A stretch of DNA of 64,000 nt from Candidatus Zixiibacteriota bacterium (GTDB lineage: Bacteria; Zixibacteria; MSB-5A5; GN15; FEB-12), in assembly GCA_022571845.1 (NCBI GenBank), contig JACZXB010000001.1, positions 372,001 to 436,000 of the forward strand. The letters are read 5' to 3'. Shown piece after piece: positions 18,394-48,358 of this stretch (position 1 is its first letter; each line of letters begins with the position of its first letter). The position numbers and the translations under genes were made by a program. Under the pieces are notes generated by a model. That model was not told the DNA's origin. It worked only from the letters and a program-made list of their open reading frames with translations, and searched no databases.

Positions 18394-18870
18394 CTACATA
18401 GACGAAGCAGCAGAGTCTGGTCTTGAATTAATCACCGTATCGCCCATAATGCCGCCTTTGTGCTTTTTTATGTCCCCATATTCTTCGCCATCTTCACCTT
18501 GATATTTCGAGGGACACTTCACTAAAAGTTTATCAGCGACGAATTCGTTCTCGTGACTGACTCCTTTGGCGACAACCGATATAGCCTGGTCAAAATTTCC
18601 CGGCACCACGCCGTAGTAAACAACTTTCAACCGCTCGGCTGTAACTTCATCTTCAGCCTCAGCATCGTAGATTGTGAATTCAAGCCTCGATTCAGCGCTG
18701 TTGTAGCTGACTTCATCTTTGGAAATTTTGCCCATGACCTGAACCATTTCGCTTGAAGTCTTTGCTTCGGCTATCGATACGTAGACAATAGTTGAGTCGA
18801 GAAAACTGGTTATCCCCCATATCATAGTCACACCGATAATAACCAGGCCTATTATTGTTTTAGCATTCAC
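18394..18870 (-). CDS. ccmE: CcmE haem chaperone, CxxxY variant
   Basis: The 158-residue protein has an N-terminal membrane anchor (about 5-25) and an OB-fold periplasmic domain matching CcmE (VQVMGKIS, LEFTIYD, LKVVYYGVVPGNFDQA, VSHENEFVADKLLVKCPSKY). The covalent haem-binding residue is Cys119 in C-P-S-K-Y rather than the His of HxxxY. This is the CxxxY type known from Desulfovibrio and archaea, associated with variant Ccm machinery. It begins at GTG (18868-18870), overlapping the ccmD stop as GTGA. The acidic and His-containing tail is diverged. It receives haem from CcmC and hands it to CcmF, which is not in the window. Confidence 0.9.
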   Translation of the reverse strand: MNAKTIIGLVIIGVTMIWGITSFLDSTIVYVSIAEAKTSSEMVQVMGKISKDEVSYNSAESRLEFTIYDAEAEDEVTAERLKVVYYGVVPGNFDQAISVVAKGVSHENEFVADKLLVKCPSKYQGEDGEEYGDIKKHKGGIMGDTVINSRPDSAASSM

Positions 18871-18980
18871 CTGCTTTTCTCCTCCAGTTTTTTTATTCGC
18901 TTATCAAGCTTCAAGAGGAATATAAACAATCCTGCCCAGATTGCCAGTGTTACCGCCAGAGCTACGTAATTTCCATCCAT
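18867..18980 (-). CDS. ccmD: CcmD-like small membrane protein, 37 residues
   Basis: A short frame of 37 codons reads MDGNYVALAVTLAIWAGLFI and then FLLKLDKRIKKLEEKSR: one transmembrane helix followed by a basic amphipathic tail, the CcmD layout (about 35-70 residues in the family). ATG at 18978-18980 is one base after the ccmC stop, and its TGA overlaps the GTG of ccmE. Position between ccmC and ccmE is the classical one. CcmD helps release holo-CcmE from CcmABC. Confidence 0.85.
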   Translation of the reverse strand: MDGNYVALAVTLAIWAGLFIFLLKLDKRIKKLEEKSR

Positions 18981-18981
18981 T

Positions 18982-19638
18982 TTAGGCTGCCCCTGTCATT
19001 TGTTTTCTTTTTAATCGATTTAACCTCTTGGTCAGGCTCAGCATCCAGAAGTATAAAACGCTGAAGGCGGCCAGTGAAGAGAAGAATATCGAACGAACCT
19101 GCACTCCCATTGTAAAATTCAAATTTTCATCTATTACCGAATCGGTCGGGTGCAGCGAGGTAACCATTCTGGGGACAACAAAAACTAGAAAAGGAACAGT
19201 CACAAACGCAAAAATCGAATAAACAGCTGAAAGCGTGGCCCGCCGGTCTTCGTCTTCAACAGCGCTCCTAAGGGCAAAAAAGGCACCGTAAATTAGCAGC
19301 AGGATAAATATCGAGGTTTGCCTCGGATCCCAGTTCCAAAACGAGCCCCAGGTAACTTTGGCGAATATCGAACCGGTTATTGTCGCCAGCAGACAGAAGA
19401 TAAAGCCGAGACGGGCTGTATCCAGCGCATAATCATCATCGATAAGCTTTCTATTTTTCAAAAATCGCGCTGAGTAAAAAGCTGACATTGCAAAGGCCAC
19501 CACGCAAAGCCAGGCTTGCGGTATATGGAAGTAAAATATCCGGCTGGCTTCGCCAATCTGCTTCTGGGGAGCCTCGGTAATAAATCCGGTTACGATTACC
19601 GCTGACATCACTAAAAATAATAAAATTTGCCACCACAT
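18982..19638 (-). CDS. ccmC: Haem transporter/lyase CcmC
   Basis: The 218-residue protein has six transmembrane helices and the haem-handling WGxxWxWD motif as WGSFWNWDPRQTS (about 97-109). Conserved His residues occur in FYFHIPQAW (His38) and MVTSLHPTDS (near 163), the axial ligands in the family. CcmC loads haem onto CcmE at the outer face of the inner membrane. It follows ccmB by 5 bases and precedes ccmD by one base. Confidence 0.95.
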   Translation of the reverse strand: MWWQILLFLVMSAVIVTGFITEAPQKQIGEASRIFYFHIPQAWLCVVAFAMSAFYSARFLKNRKLIDDDYALDTARLGFIFCLLATITGSIFAKVTWGSFWNWDPRQTSIFILLLIYGAFFALRSAVEDEDRRATLSAVYSIFAFVTVPFLVFVVPRMVTSLHPTDSVIDENLNFTMGVQVRSIFFSSLAAFSVLYFWMLSLTKRLNRLKRKQMTGAA

Positions 19639-19643
19639 AATTC

Positions 19644-20357
19644 TTAATCTTCCCAGACAAACTTAAACAACATTAGCGACGCTGTCACCATTATTACTAC
19701 ATAAGCGAGCAAAAATTGCAATAATTTCGAAACTTCGGCCAGACTGCTGCCTGCCCAGACCTTATCAGTCGCCGCTACCAGCACTATTAAAACAGGCAGT
19801 AAAATCGGAAAAGAGAGCACCGCGAATAAGGCGCCTTTGACCGAAGCCCTGGCAATAATGGCCGCTATTAGAGTGGTAGCAGCGCATAAATCCAGTACGC
19901 CCAATATCATGACCAGCAGGAAATTCACAATTCCCTCTACTGGAGCGTCAGTAAATATGAAAAAGAGCGGCGTTATCACTGAGACCAAGATCACTAAGAG
20001 CGACAGATTAAAAAAGAGCTTACCCAGATAGACAGCGTTTGGCTCAGTTGTTAAACGCAGAGCCATGGCGGTGCCCGATTCTTCTTCGCGGACAAAGACC
20101 TGAGCCATAGCCGACATAGCTGAAAATAAGACCACAATCCAGTACAGCGCGCTTAAAACTTTGGTAGACAGGGCTGCCTGGCCGAGCGAAAAAGAGATAA
20201 CAGTCAGAGACGAAATACCAAACATGAAAATAGCGTTAAGGCCGTAGCGGGAGCGCAGCTCCAATCGCAGATCCTTGACATAAACTGCCAGTACTTTATT
20301 GGTCAAGCCGGCATTGCTGGCTGGCAAGGCTATACTCTTCTTTCTCATTTGTGGCAA
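19644..20357 (-). CDS. ccmB: Haem exporter membrane subunit CcmB
   Basis: About 237 residues with six hydrophobic helices and the CcmB signatures VYVKDLRLELRSRYGLNAIFMF and REEESGTAMALRLTTEPNAVYLGKL, then GALFAVLSFPILLPVLI. It is the membrane subunit of the CcmAB ABC transporter that frees holo-CcmE from CcmC. The frame as drawn overlaps ccmA by 62 bases; homology begins only at about residue 22, so the true start may be further in, for instance TTG near 20308. Confidence 0.92.
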   Translation of the reverse strand: MPQMRKKSIALPASNAGLTNKVLAVYVKDLRLELRSRYGLNAIFMFGISSLTVISFSLGQAALSTKVLSALYWIVVLFSAMSAMAQVFVREEESGTAMALRLTTEPNAVYLGKLFFNLSLLVILVSVITPLFFIFTDAPVEGIVNFLLVMILGVLDLCAATTLIAAIIARASVKGALFAVLSFPILLPVLIVLVAATDKVWAGSSLAEVSKLLQFLLAYVVIMVTASLMLFKFVWED

Positions 20358-20949
20358 TTATAATTATGCTGCCGGAGCGCTGTTCTTCAATCAGGGCAGT
20401 CATCATCGCTTTTCCTGAATCGTCAAGGCCGCTGGATGGTTCATCAATCAGCAAAAAATCCGGTTTGTTACTTAGCGCTACTGCATATTTGAGGCGTTGT
20501 TTCATACCGGTTGAATAGTCTGAGACTAAATCCATACCTCTGCCTTCCAGGCCGACCCTGAGTAACAGGCTGTCTATTTCTTTGCCGGTGATATTTCTGC
20601 CTCGAACGGCTGTGAAAAATTGTAAATTCTCTTCGGCTGAGAGCTGGTCATATAGACTCAGATAGGGGGCAACAAAGGAAATCCGGTGACGAAGTTCTTC
20701 CCGCGACAAAACTCTGTCATTGTCGAAATAAGTTACTTTGCCGGAGCTTGGCCGCAGCAGCGCCAGAAGCAGTTTTAAGAGAGTGGTTTTGCCGGAGCCG
20801 TTGGGACCGGTTATGGCAACGGATTCTCCCTGCCTGATTTCAAGATTAAGCGAAGATATCACTTTTCGCTCACCGAAGTTTTTTTTGAGGCTCTCTACTT
20901 TAATCGCCAGCACATAGAAATGATACCACCAACTTAGCCGTGTAATCAA
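20296..20949 (-). CDS. ccmA: ABC transporter ATPase subunit CcmA
   Basis: The protein carries Walker A GPNGSGKTT, the signature YSTGMKQRLKYA and Walker B FLLIDEPSSGLDD: a complete nucleotide-binding domain of CcmA size. The longest frame starts with a TTG at 20947-20949, but homology starts at VLAIKVESLKK, so the GTG at 20911-20913 (205 residues) is a better start, with a modest GGTGG upstream. It drives CcmB in releasing haem-loaded CcmE and is the first gene of ccmABCDE. A terminator separates it from the gene upstream. Confidence 0.93.
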   Translation of the reverse strand: MITRLSWWYHFYVLAIKVESLKKNFGERKVISSLNLEIRQGESVAITGPNGSGKTTLLKLLLALLRPSSGKVTYFDNDRVLSREELRHRISFVAPYLSLYDQLSAEENLQFFTAVRGRNITGKEIDSLLLRVGLEGRGMDLVSDYSTGMKQRLKYAVALSNKPDFLLIDEPSSGLDDSGKAMMTALIEEQRSGSIIIIATNEKEEYSLASQQCRLDQ

Positions 20950-44216: not shown

Positions 44217-44861
44217 TTAATCAAGCTTCTTCCACTCAGGCAGTTCAATCTGCTCGACAGGAGCTCCTGAGAATCCTCTGAAAACTGCCACAACTTCAAT
44301 TGTCTCAGCAAGTTTGAAAAACAGAGCCTTAGGGCGGGGAATCTTGAAATCGTCAAGTTTGATCGCAAACTCTGCTCTCACTTTTATTGATTCACTTTTA
44401 GAATTTGTGAGACTTCTCACTATAGTAAGGTCTGCCTCAATTTCACGATAAACCCCGTGAATATAAAACTTGCCGATTACTCTGGCAGTATATATTGAAT
44501 CAGCGACGCTAAGAGAAATCACGGGCACAAGAGAATCAACCTGGAAATATGCGAATGGATACTTTTCAGTATGCAGATGATTGTCGCGCATATGTCCATC
44601 ACGGGTTGCAATGCCTGTCTTGAGTGTTCGCAGGTCAACAGCCAACAGGCCGCTTATGCTTCCTTCCGGATTTTCGGGGTCGAAACTGAACATGCCCGAA
44701 ACATTTTGAGTTTTACCAGCAACGAATTCCAGCCGGGCCGTGGAATTGAAGTAGACGGTGTCGCCGGTATATGTTGGGTCAAGGTTATAACGTTCTGCTG
44801 CAACAGTAGTCCCCAGCAGAAGGACAACTATGAAACTTCCTATAATTGATCTCACTCGCAT
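44217..44861 (-). CDS. YceI-family periplasmic protein
   Basis: The 214 residues have a signal peptide (about 1-22) and a YceI/lipocalin-like domain: YNLDPTYTGDTVYFNSTARL, VSGMFSFDPENPEGS, MRDNHLHTEKYPFAYFQ and the closing DFKIPRPKALFFKLAETIEV. YceI proteins bind isoprenoid-type lipids such as polyprenols or quinones. It is the third gene of a compact cluster with a CX4CH lipoprotein and a haem-binding barrel, so binding a quinone-like electron carrier is conceivable. That is inference. Confidence 0.9.
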   Translation of the reverse strand: MRVRSIIGSFIVVLLLGTTVAAERYNLDPTYTGDTVYFNSTARLEFVAGKTQNVSGMFSFDPENPEGSISGLLAVDLRTLKTGIATRDGHMRDNHLHTEKYPFAYFQVDSLVPVISLSVADSIYTARVIGKFYIHGVYREIEADLTIVRSLTNSKSESIKVRAEFAIKLDDFKIPRPKALFFKLAETIEVVAVFRGFSGAPVEQIELPEWKKLD

Positions 44862-44871
44862 GAGTTGCGTC

Positions 44872-45573
44872 TTAATTGTCGAGTGCGCCTTGGTTTATCC
44901 AGTCTCTGATGGCTATTTGCTGCGCTGATGAGAGGGCGCCACCGCCAAAAGGCATCTGTGCATTAAAAGGTGGACTCGAAGTTGTCTTGGTATAAAGAGT
45001 GCTCAACGACGCATTTCCGGCTACTACTATAGTTCCACCGATGTTGCCAGAAGCAGCTCTTATTTGAGCCCAGGTAGCCGTTCCCATATTTAGGCCGCCT
45101 TGAATTGGGGCGCTTCCATGGCAGGCCGAAATAGCACAACTTGATACAAGAATAGGCCTGACAGCTGTTCCGTAACTTACGGCCAGAGCAACTGTTATAT
45201 TTACGACTTCGCTGTCAGTTGCAGCAGTATCGAAGGCATAAAAAGTAATAGTAGCCACACCAATCTGACCCACTGTAGGGGTCCAGCTAAAGCTTCCAGT
45301 CCCGTTATTGTTATCTGTAAATGATGCGCCTGTGGGCAAAGTAGAAGTTGTCAGAGTCGGGGCGGGGCCGTCGGCATCTGTTGCAGTGACATTAAAAGCC
45401 AAATTAATACCGACAGCTGCTGAACGGCTTCCTATAGCAGCCAGCACTGGCGCCTGATTACCACCGCCACCACCACCATCGGTCGGAGAGCCGCTGTCTG
45501 AACAGCCGTAAGAGATTACCAGCAGCAGTCCAAATGAGAGCAAGCCCATTATTATTGTTAATTTCTGCATCAT
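44872..45573 (-). CDS. Lipoprotein with Ig-like domain and CX4CH cytochrome-type haem motif
   Basis: The 233 residues have a lipobox (ISYGC, Cys24), a poly-Gly linker, a cadherin/putative-Ig domain (about 40-130) and a C-terminal mini-cytochrome region (about 138-233). The haem motif is C-A-I-S-A-C-H (Cys146, Cys151, His152): four residues lie between the cysteines instead of two. A candidate axial Met stands in NAQMPFGGGALS. Such CX4CH domains occur in Bacteroidetes and Planctomycetes-type lipoproteins. It should be a surface or periplasmic monohaem electron carrier. Ten bases separate it from the YceI gene. Confidence 0.82.
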   Translation of the reverse strand: MMQKLTIIMGLLSFGLLLVISYGCSDSGSPTDGGGGGGNQAPVLAAIGSRSAAVGINLAFNVTATDADGPAPTLTTSTLPTGASFTDNNNGTGSFSWTPTVGQIGVATITFYAFDTAATDSEVVNITVALAVSYGTAVRPILVSSCAISACHGSAPIQGGLNMGTATWAQIRAASGNIGGTIVVAGNASLSTLYTKTTSSPPFNAQMPFGGGALSSAQQIAIRDWINQGALDN

Positions 45574-45596
45574 ATATCCCTTTCCTATCTAATTTC

Positions 45597-46628
45597 TTAA
45601 TAACCTACATGAAATTGGAGAAAGAAGTTATCCTCTCCTTCAAGCGGTCCGCTCGAATAGTAAGTATAGGACGGTCTGAATTGCACAAACGGAATCGGAT
45701 AAAACTCCAGCGAAAAGCGCAGGAATTCGTTTACCCCGCTTTTAAGATCACGATCATCATCAAAGAAATTATATTCTGCTATCAGATAAAGTCCGTATTC
45801 GATTCTGGTTGTTAATCCGGCGTAAACTAAAAGCGAATCATTGGCTTTACCGGCCAGATCAAGTTCACCCAGCAGAGTGAAGCGGTCATAGGACAAGCCG
45901 CCAAAAATTCCTTTGGTGTGTGGAAACGCTCCGTTTGAACCGTTTTGTTGTTCTGAAATCCTTGCCGAGAAACCGGCCAGAAAACTTAACGATTTGACAT
46001 AGCCGGTTCTGAAAATATGAAAGGCACCGACAAACCGCTGGCCGGGGTTAAAAAATTCGACTGCTATGTTAGACCCTCCTATCTCGGCGCCAACAGAGAC
46101 ACCGTCAATATAGGCGTTGTAGGCAAAGTTTAATTGTGAACGGACAAAAGTATCAAAATCTGCCATTCTCAGTCCATAGGCCGGAAAAAAGCGGCCAATT
46201 TTGATATAGTACTTTTGGTGGTCCAGATAGAGCTGCATATACTGTTCACTTGATCCATTTTCCCAGAAGCGCAGATGGTACATCAGGTCCTGGTATGGTT
46301 CAAAAGTAAGATAAGCGTCGGTCTGCAATCTGAAAACGCGGCCACCCTCTTGTATACGATAACGGGAATCAAATCCGACCAGTACGCTTTCGGAAATTCT
46401 CGGCGAGTGGTATTTTTCTATAAAATAATTTTTTGTTTTCTGCAAAGTCAGTTCGTGAAAGGCTACGGCATGATTACCGAACTCTGTCCTTGCCCCGCCG
46501 CCGTTGGGATTAATGTGACAGGTTTTGCAAGCTAGTGACTGCTCTGCGGCAAGACGCGGCAGAGACTGCAATGTTGCTGCCATAATCAGAAATAAGACTA
46601 AGACCGGAGCGATAGTCCAGAGTTTCAA
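45597..46628 (-). CDS. Outer-membrane barrel with N-terminal monohaem CxxCH (porin-cytochrome fusion)
   Basis: The 343 residues have a signal peptide (about 1-28), immediately followed by ACKTCHINPNGGG (Cys34, Cys37, His38), a c-type haem site, and then a region of at least twelve amphipathic strands (MYHLRFWENGSSEQYMQLYL, FVGAFHIFRTGYVKSLSFLA) ending in FLQFHVGY, a typical C-terminal barrel strand with aromatic last residue. The fusion suggests a haem held at or in the barrel, able to pass electrons across the outer membrane. It is first in a tight operon with a CX4CH lipoprotein and a YceI protein. Confidence 0.82.
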   Translation of the reverse strand: MKLWTIAPVLVLFLIMAATLQSLPRLAAEQSLACKTCHINPNGGGARTEFGNHAVAFHELTLQKTKNYFIEKYHSPRISESVLVGFDSRYRIQEGGRVFRLQTDAYLTFEPYQDLMYHLRFWENGSSEQYMQLYLDHQKYYIKIGRFFPAYGLRMADFDTFVRSQLNFAYNAYIDGVSVGAEIGGSNIAVEFFNPGQRFVGAFHIFRTGYVKSLSFLAGFSARISEQQNGSNGAFPHTKGIFGGLSYDRFTLLGELDLAGKANDSLLVYAGLTTRIEYGLYLIAEYNFFDDDRDLKSGVNEFLRFSLEFYPIPFVQFRPSYTYYSSGPLEGEDNFFLQFHVGY

Positions 46629-46789: not shown

Positions 46790-48358
46790 TTAGTGCTTAA
46801 AATGTCTTATTCCGGTAAAGACCATAGCTACCTTGGCTTTATCAGCAGCAGCTATGATTTTGTCGTCCGCTTTGGAGCCACCCGGCTGGATTATGGCCTT
46901 GATACCGGCCTCGGTGGCAACTTCAAGGCCATCGGTCATCGGAAAAAATGCATCCGAGGCCATTACAGCGCCAGCGGCCCTGTCTCCGGCACGTTTAACT
47001 GCCATGAATCCGGAATCTACTCGCGAGGTCTGCCCCATGCCAATGCCAACAGTAGCGCCATCTTTGGCCAGCACTATCGCATTCGATTTGGTGTGCTTGA
47101 CAACTTTCCAGGCAAAAAGTAAATCATCGATTTGCTTTTTGGTCGGAGCTTTTTTGGTGACGACTTTAAGGTCGTTGGCTTTGACTTCGGCATCATCTGC
47201 TGCTTGTGCCAGAAGTCCGCCTTGAATGTGACGGTAGCGGGTCAAATCTGTAGATTTCCCATTTGCGATTTCCGGCAAGGCCAGTAAACGGCGGGCTTTT
47301 TTCTTTTTCAAAAGTTTTAACGCCTCTTCGGTAAACGACGGCGCCAGTATGCACTCCACAAACGGAGTTTCGTGCAGATGGTGGGCAGCATCAATATCTA
47401 TCTCTCGATTCAGTCCGATGATTGAACCAAAGGCAGATAGCGGGTCACTTTCATAGGCGGCCACGAATGCCAGAGCGATTGTCTTTCCGATGGCAGCGCC
47501 ACAGGGGTTACTGTGTTTTAAAACGCAGGCAAATGGTTCTTTAAAAGCAAGCAGCAGCTCCAAGCAGGCATCAAGATCGTTATAGTTGTTGTAAGATAGT
47601 TCTTTTCCTGAGAGAATCTCCGCTTTGAGCAGGCTCGTTGACAGATAAGCCATATCCTGATAGAGTGCGGCCTGTTGATGAGGATTTTCGCCGTAGCGCA
47701 AGGCTGAATTGTAATCAAATCGCATCACCAAATCTCGAGGGAATTGCACACCGCCCTTTTCATCTTGAGCAAAATAATTTGCTATGGCGGCATCATAATC
47801 GGCAGTCAGTGCAAAAGCCTTCTTGGCGCATTTTCTTTTAAACGAGGAATCAGTAGCGCCAACGTTGCCTCTTATCTGCTCTAAAAGTTCCGCGTAATCT
47901 TCAGTGTCTACCACCACCGTAACGCTGTCATGATTTTTTGCAGCAGCACGTATCATAGTCGGCCCGCCGATATCGATATTTTCTACCGCTTCAGCATCGG
48001 TCACGTCTGGCCTGGCAACAGTCTCTTTAAACGGATAGAGGTTTACAATTATCAGGTCGATACTTCGCGACTCAGCTCTGACCAGTTGCTCGACATCTTC
48101 GGGGTTGTCTCTTCGATGAAGAATGCCAGTGTAAATTTTTGGATGAAGAGTTTTGACGCGCCCGCCCATTACCTCGGGGAAGCCGGTAAAAGAAGAAACA
48201 GATACGGCCGGGATATTGTTTTCTTTGAGCAGTTTCAGAGTTCCGCCGGTTGAAATTATTTCGATACCCAGTTGGTGCAGCGCCTGGCCCAGTTCTACTA
48301 TGCCGGTTTTATTAAATACTGAAATCAGCGCCCGTTTTATTTTGTTAGTTTTAGCCAT
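46790..48358 (-). CDS. purH: Bifunctional AICAR formyltransferase/IMP cyclohydrolase
   Basis: The 522 residues comprise an N-terminal MGS-like cyclohydrolase (RALISVFNKTGIVELGQAL, TGFPEVMGGRVKTLHPKIYTG) and a C-terminal transformylase (LRYGENPHQQAALYQ, LKHSNPCGAAIG, GGSKADDKIIAAADKAKVAM, FTGIRHFKH). It carries out the last two steps of IMP synthesis. It begins one base after purC. Confidence 0.97.
   Translation of the reverse strand: MAKTNKIKRALISVFNKTGIVELGQALHQLGIEIISTGGTLKLLKENNIPAVSVSSFTGFPEVMGGRVKTLHPKIYTGILHRRDNPEDVEQLVRAESRSIDLIIVNLYPFKETVARPDVTDAEAVENIDIGGPTMIRAAAKNHDSVTVVVDTEDYAELLEQIRGNVGATDSSFKRKCAKKAFALTADYDAAIANYFAQDEKGGVQFPRDLVMRFDYNSALRYGENPHQQAALYQDMAYLSTSLLKAEILSGKELSYNNYNDLDACLELLLAFKEPFACVLKHSNPCGAAIGKTIALAFVAAYESDPLSAFGSIIGLNREIDIDAAHHLHETPFVECILAPSFTEEALKLLKKKKARRLLALPEIANGKSTDLTRYRHIQGGLLAQAADDAEVKANDLKVVTKKAPTKKQIDDLLFAWKVVKHTKSNAIVLAKDGATVGIGMGQTSRVDSGFMAVKRAGDRAAGAVMASDAFFPMTDGLEVATEAGIKAIIQPGGSKADDKIIAAADKAKVAMVFTGIRHFKH

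Follow-up and report, generated by a model that had tools for sequence, protein, structure and literature searches.

What does an envelope module do when it joins an outer-membrane porin with a built-in haem site, a lipoprotein with a second haem site and a YceI-family protein? In the window (the whole stretch of 64,000 nucleotides that we analysed), which comes from an uncultured sediment bacterium of the Zixibacteria, three minus-strand open reading frames encode such a set, with intergenic gaps of 23 and 10 bases (Table 1). On one side the module is flanked by purH (46790-48358) and on the other by a DUF494 gene and then coaBC. The adjacency, strand, gaps and haem motifs had been described in an earlier sequence-only reading of the locus, and we confirm all of them in the sequence.

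Table 1 Genes and sites of the module, with positions in the window
Feature	Position	Strand	Details
Haem-barrel gene	45597-46628	-	TTG start; 343 aa; signal peptide; predicted fusion of a monohaem cytochrome and a 16-strand porin
CxxCH haem-attachment site, CKTCH, residues 34-38	46515-46529	-	Invariant in 33/33 rows
His340 codon (His321 in the model)	45609-45611	-	Candidate sixth haem ligand
Lipoprotein gene	44872-45573	-	233 aa; lipobox Cys24; He_PIG; C-terminal class I-like monohaem cytochrome c domain (predicted)
CX4CH haem site of the lipoprotein, CAISACH, residues 146-152	45118-45138	-	CX2CH in the same position in 7 of 37 homologues
Met207-Pro208 codons of the lipoprotein	44950-44955	-	Invariant in 37/37 rows
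YceI-family gene	44217-44861	-	214 aa; predicted periplasmic; signal peptide; Pfam YceI 1.6e-18

Three proteins of a compact module

The haem-barrel protein matched no family in Pfam or NCBIfam, and a sequence search of the PDB with the barrel and the lipoprotein returned nothing meaningful. Its AlphaFold model is confident (pLDDT 90.2, pTM 0.87) and consists of 16 strands preceded by a helical haem domain that takes up about 60 residues at the N-terminus, so that the outer-membrane barrel proposed from sequence passes the test set for it, a barrel shape in a structure model. The best PDB folds found by Foldseek were outer-membrane porins, including OprP (2o4v, TMq 0.62). The alignment of 33 rows gives the family motif xPR[LF][AS]..E/Q...CxxCHxxPxGGGxRxxFG. 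Because the two cysteines and the histidine are invariant among homologues of both the barrel (C34, C37 and H38, 33/33) and the lipoprotein (37/37), these haem motifs are not a matter of chance. Both proteins would carry covalently attached haem.

When the strand faces of the barrel are assigned to pore or lipid from hydrophobic alternation, conservation is higher on the pore face than on the lipid face (2.38 versus 1.94 bits, p = 4e-5). D68, R70 and G126 are invariant among the pore-face positions, and E109 and H321 are near-invariant. His340 (321 in the model) is conserved in 30 of the 32 rows that have a letter there, faces the pore according to the hydrophobicity assignment and is located in the last strand, close to where it reaches the periplasm. 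We consider this residue the best candidate for the sixth ligand of the barrel haem. The haem domain would sit at the periplasmic mouth of the pore.

The lipoprotein begins with the lipobox LVISYGC-SD, in which Cys24 and the aspartate two residues further on are near-invariant, and continues through an Ig-like spacer (Pfam He_PIG, residues 41-129) to its haem domain. Residues C146, C151, H152, M207 and P208 are invariant in the 37 aligned homologues, a sequence pattern expected of a class I cytochrome c with His/Met ligation, in which Met207 would by analogy be the axial methionine. The spacing of the haem site varies among these homologues, being CX4CH in 28, CX2CH in 7, CX5CH in 1 and CX6CH in 1; CX4CH is therefore an ordinary c-type haem site with an altered loop length. 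The idea that CX4CH is an exotic haem site was rejected, as CX2CH occupies the same position in 7/37 homologues, and so was a functional part for the Ig-like domain, which is absent from the lipoprotein of a congener (locus L036). The haem domain is weakly matched by the planctomycete-type PSCyt1 family (PF07635), at 0.016 and below the curated cut-off for the window protein and at 1.4e-5 and above the cut-off for one homologue; most members of the lipoprotein family differ from PSCyt1 in having CX4CH instead of CX2CH.

The third protein belongs to the YceI family of lipocalin-like proteins that bind isoprenoids or quinones (PF04264, 67.9 bits against a cut-off of 23.7), and two more YceI genes occur elsewhere in the same genome. 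The solved structures closest to it are the X158 proteins 2x32 and 2x34, E. coli YceI (1y0g), TT1927b (1wub) and 5w2d. A redox role is plausible, although not proven, because solved YceI members mostly have isoprenoid or ubiquinone-8 bound (PMC9113575) and because Cbp2D joins YceI with cytochrome domains in one protein (PMC8981238).

Distribution and inheritance in Zixibacteria

The haem-barrel is encoded in 35 of the 132 Zixibacteria genomes, and the relatives with 87-90% identical barrels are Candidatus Zixiibacteria. One scan of genome contigs for relatives outside the phylum returned close Zixibacteria only, and separate searches of plasmids and of viral contigs gave no match. Profile searches of the DNA surrounding the barrel loci showed that, wherever a locus extended far enough, the cytochrome lipoprotein adjoins the barrel, across 8 families. 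The usual gene order is barrel, lipoprotein (two at some loci) and YceI; one family (f17) has barrel, YceI and lipoprotein, another (f15) has a divergent YceI gene, and in four (f3, f8, f16 and f19) YceI is not adjacent to the barrel. Given that the flanking genes vary between families, the order of the module is not merely general synteny. The neighbourhood is thus kept in Zixibacteria relatives, the check that the sequence-only reading had itself put forward. In a distant family, a protein with a cytochrome P460 domain and two CxxCH sites is encoded immediately upstream of the module (L059:7032-8012), and in the most distant member a plastocyanin-like and Ig-domain protein directly follows the barrel-lipoprotein pair (L068:9883-11004).

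Within the window's family (54 genomes), a YceI gene of the module type is present in 18 of the 19 genomes that bear the barrel and in none of the 35 that lack it (Fisher p = 2e-13, uncorrected for relatedness). In the nineteenth barrel genome, G058, the YceI gene is split into two frames (L047:5714-6210) and the barrel is intact. Three genomes have an empty site in which purH is directly followed by DUF494 (G028, locus L124; G025, L130; G050, L129), and in two others (G020, L126; G051, L132) the site retains the cytochrome lipoprotein alone, with neither barrel nor YceI. Barrel and YceI can thus both be absent where the lipoprotein persists, a pattern that points to a coupling of these two and to an additional, independent use of the lipoprotein. 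G025 has two copies of purH (G025:C1:874466-876019 and 2869938-2871491).

Relation to Cyc2

The sequence-only reading knew of no named system with this composition, and in this it overlooked Cyc2, the Fe(II) oxidase of Acidithiobacillus and Mariprofundus, in which a single-CXXCH cytochrome is likewise fused to a 16-strand porin (PMC8406198). Its comparison with MtrAB and PioAB was the wrong yardstick for a module whose appropriate counterpart is a fused monohaem cytochrome-porin. Cyc2 has been assigned to the OprP porin family and is defined by AXPXFAR[QK][TY] ahead of the haem site, by a PXL motif that follows the site and by a length of at least 365 aa (PMC8406198). The window barrel has the single N-terminal CXXCH behind a signal peptide and, in the predicted model, a C-terminally fused 16-strand porin. 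Its sequence before the haem site is SLPRLAAEQ, and its family retains P5 and [LF]7 of the Cyc2 motif without FAR[QK]. Where Cyc2 has PXL, four residues after CXXCH, the family has CHxxPxGGGxR, and the protein is shorter than the minimum at 343 aa. It is therefore a Cyc2-like relative, not Cyc2.

We searched the 132 Zixibacteria genomes with a DNA pattern for PxFAR[KQ]xxxxCxxCH, which matched in 38 of them, including two sites in the window's genome; the reversed control gave 0 matches. The proteins found in this way are about 400 aa long. In the barrel family, the distance from the invariant proline to the first haem cysteine is 10 residues, as in this pattern. Aligned with hhalign, the barrel family and the Zixibacteria Cyc2-motif family match over 175 columns with E = 4e-10. 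Restricted to the haem domain the value is 3.6e-9, and restricted to the barrel part it is a weaker 7.7e-5, whereas the best block-shuffled control reached 0.01, the best fully shuffled control 0.06 and reversed controls 0.06 or worse. Homology of the cytochrome domain is therefore well supported and that of the barrel is weak. This homology is to the Cyc2-motif proteins of Zixibacteria. The predicted model of a Cyc2-motif comparison protein (pLDDT 39.9) was left out of the comparison, the first row of its alignment being probably divergent.

The two strict Cyc2-motif porins of the window's genome (G000:C4:45798 and G000:C6:148556) resemble the window barrel in general architecture, as judged by sequence, but contain FARKY and PXL and are longer. 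Across the genomes, the barrel and strict Cyc2-type genes do not co-occur above chance (12 shared genomes, p = 0.39). One of the two strict porins lies in a cluster (L101:6682-12834, on G000:C6) that is a candidate iron-oxidation operon, with a COX4-cytochrome c fusion before the porin and hexahaem and monohaem cytochromes after it. A protein with a partial match to Fe2+ transport and a plastocyanin-like protein are also encoded there. The other (L100:7646-8860, on G000:C4) is situated between an MntR/DtxR-like regulator and a metal ABC-transporter-like set, neighbours that were recognized by eye from their sequences, and a further YceI gene and a monohaem protein gene are found about 5 kb away. 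The genome encodes a haem-copper oxidase, and the window itself carries part of the System I cytochrome c maturation genes (18394-20949, minus strand), those for CcmE, CcmC and CcmB together with an ABC ATPase gene at the place of CcmA. In earlier work FeGenie had picked out Zixibacteria as carrying iron-oxidation genes (PMC8478452).

Proposed electron exchange and comparison with known systems

We consider it probable that the module is a compact outer-membrane device for the exchange of single electrons. By its architecture, the window barrel should work like Cyc2. Electron transfer itself, its direction and substrate, the order of the relay and the role of YceI are inferred. From outside, the pore would admit a small redox partner in solution, of which a reductant such as Fe2+ is the simplest case, and this partner would exchange an electron with the porin haem at the periplasmic mouth. 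The second c-type haem, on the outer-membrane lipoprotein, would then relay the electron in the periplasm towards the respiratory chain, and YceI, binding an isoprenoid or quinone, may serve as an alternative carrier or may protect or service the porin. Inward flow is favoured by analogy with Cyc2 only. Iron is no more than a candidate substrate of the haem-porin. The minimal trans-envelope electron path of the sequence-only reading holds up as the best reading, for the outer membrane only. In its favour are the barrel model with its porin-like fold, the homology of the haem domain to Cyc2-motif proteins, the conserved pore face, the lipoprotein beside the barrel, the co-inheritance of barrel and YceI, and the haem-copper oxidase and Ccm genes of the genome. 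Against it stand the missing strict Cyc2 motif, PXL and 365-aa minimum, the weak barrel-only homology (7.7e-5, where the best shuffled control gave 0.01), the absence of YceI beside the barrel in several families and the lack of a link to strict Cyc2-type genes beyond chance. We regard as possible, if doubtful, a separate branch of fused cytochrome-porins with its own partners, in which the haems of porin and lipoprotein and the quinone carried by YceI would make up a full three-protein path at the outer membrane. The soluble substrate of this path would be different from iron or additional to it.

Electrons might also flow outwards. Quinol bound to YceI and the lipoprotein would then be the donors, and the haem-porin would export reducing equivalents to an acceptor in solution or to an enzyme outside the cell. 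We entertain this tentatively: Cbp2D joins YceI and monohaem cytochrome domains and its X183 cytochrome domain reduces LPMOs extracellularly (PMC8981238), the window YceI is nearest to the X158 structures 2x32 and 2x34, and Zixibacteria from DeMMO have both iron-oxidation and iron-reduction genes (PMC8478452). However, the Cyc2-type porins tested so far are Fe2+ oxidases (PMC8406198), and in the neighbourhoods listed neither an LPMO nor any other redox enzyme that acts outside the cell adjoins the module.

Protection of the outer membrane is an unlikely function, in which YceI-bound quinone and the two haems would quench lipid peroxyl radicals or peroxides, much like BcnA with the cytochrome b561 LcoA. 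YceI lipocalins and a genetically linked cytochrome do form a known system for lipid-peroxyl detoxification (PMC9113575), barrel and YceI are co-inherited, and a rubrerythrin-like open reading frame, identified by eye only, adjoins the module at two loci (L049 and L050). Yet the cytochrome of that known system is a b561 of the inner membrane and not a porin, radical quenching needs no conserved pore with a haem domain, and several families have no YceI beside the barrel. We have even less confidence in a selective uptake porin whose haem domain is a structural plug or gate, with the cytochrome and YceI belonging to ordinary respiration. The fold matches of the barrel are uptake porins, and the lipoprotein that stands alone at two sites indicates that the cytochrome is used independently, but a redox role is favoured by the strictness of CxxCH (33/33) and by the haem lipoprotein, which neighbours the barrel at every locus that extends far enough. 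The periplasmic redox sensor suggested in the sequence-only reading is highly improbable, having in its favour only that small haem domains occur in envelopes, and finding no support in a conserved module devoid of signalling domains and of regulator, kinase, sigma or anti-sigma genes.

Cyc2-like porins serve as marker genes for iron oxidation. Lacking the published motif and the 365-aa length, the barrel family described here would be missed by those criteria despite the shared architecture. Its fixed partner genes make two questions testable: what the electron acceptor of a fused cytochrome-porin is, and what YceI does beside cytochromes.

Among other systems, MtrAB, PioAB and MtoAB have a larger barrel, which encloses a decahaem cytochrome encoded as a protein of its own. 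The module resembles them in combining an outer-membrane barrel with haem for proposed trans-envelope electron transfer, and differs in that its 16-strand barrel has a single haem domain fused to it. No multihaem gene adjoins the barrel in the 15 loci examined, although a protein with two CxxCH sites, the P460-domain protein, is encoded nearby in L059. Cbp2D/Cbp2E (YceI-type X158 with cytochrome domains) and BcnA-LcoA link YceI to cytochromes as the module does, but lack a porin. Cbp2D is secreted and combines several domains, and LcoA is an inner-membrane b561, both unlike the module. With Cyc2 the window barrel has in common the signal peptide, the single N-terminal CxxCH and the 16-strand porin, and in both the haem domain is expected at the periplasmic mouth. 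It departs from Cyc2 in having xPR[LF][AS].E/Q for AXPXFAR[QK][TY] and CHxxPxGGGxR for PXL, in its length of 343 aa where Cyc2 mostly has 400 or more, and in its fixed neighbours, a cytochrome lipoprotein and often YceI.
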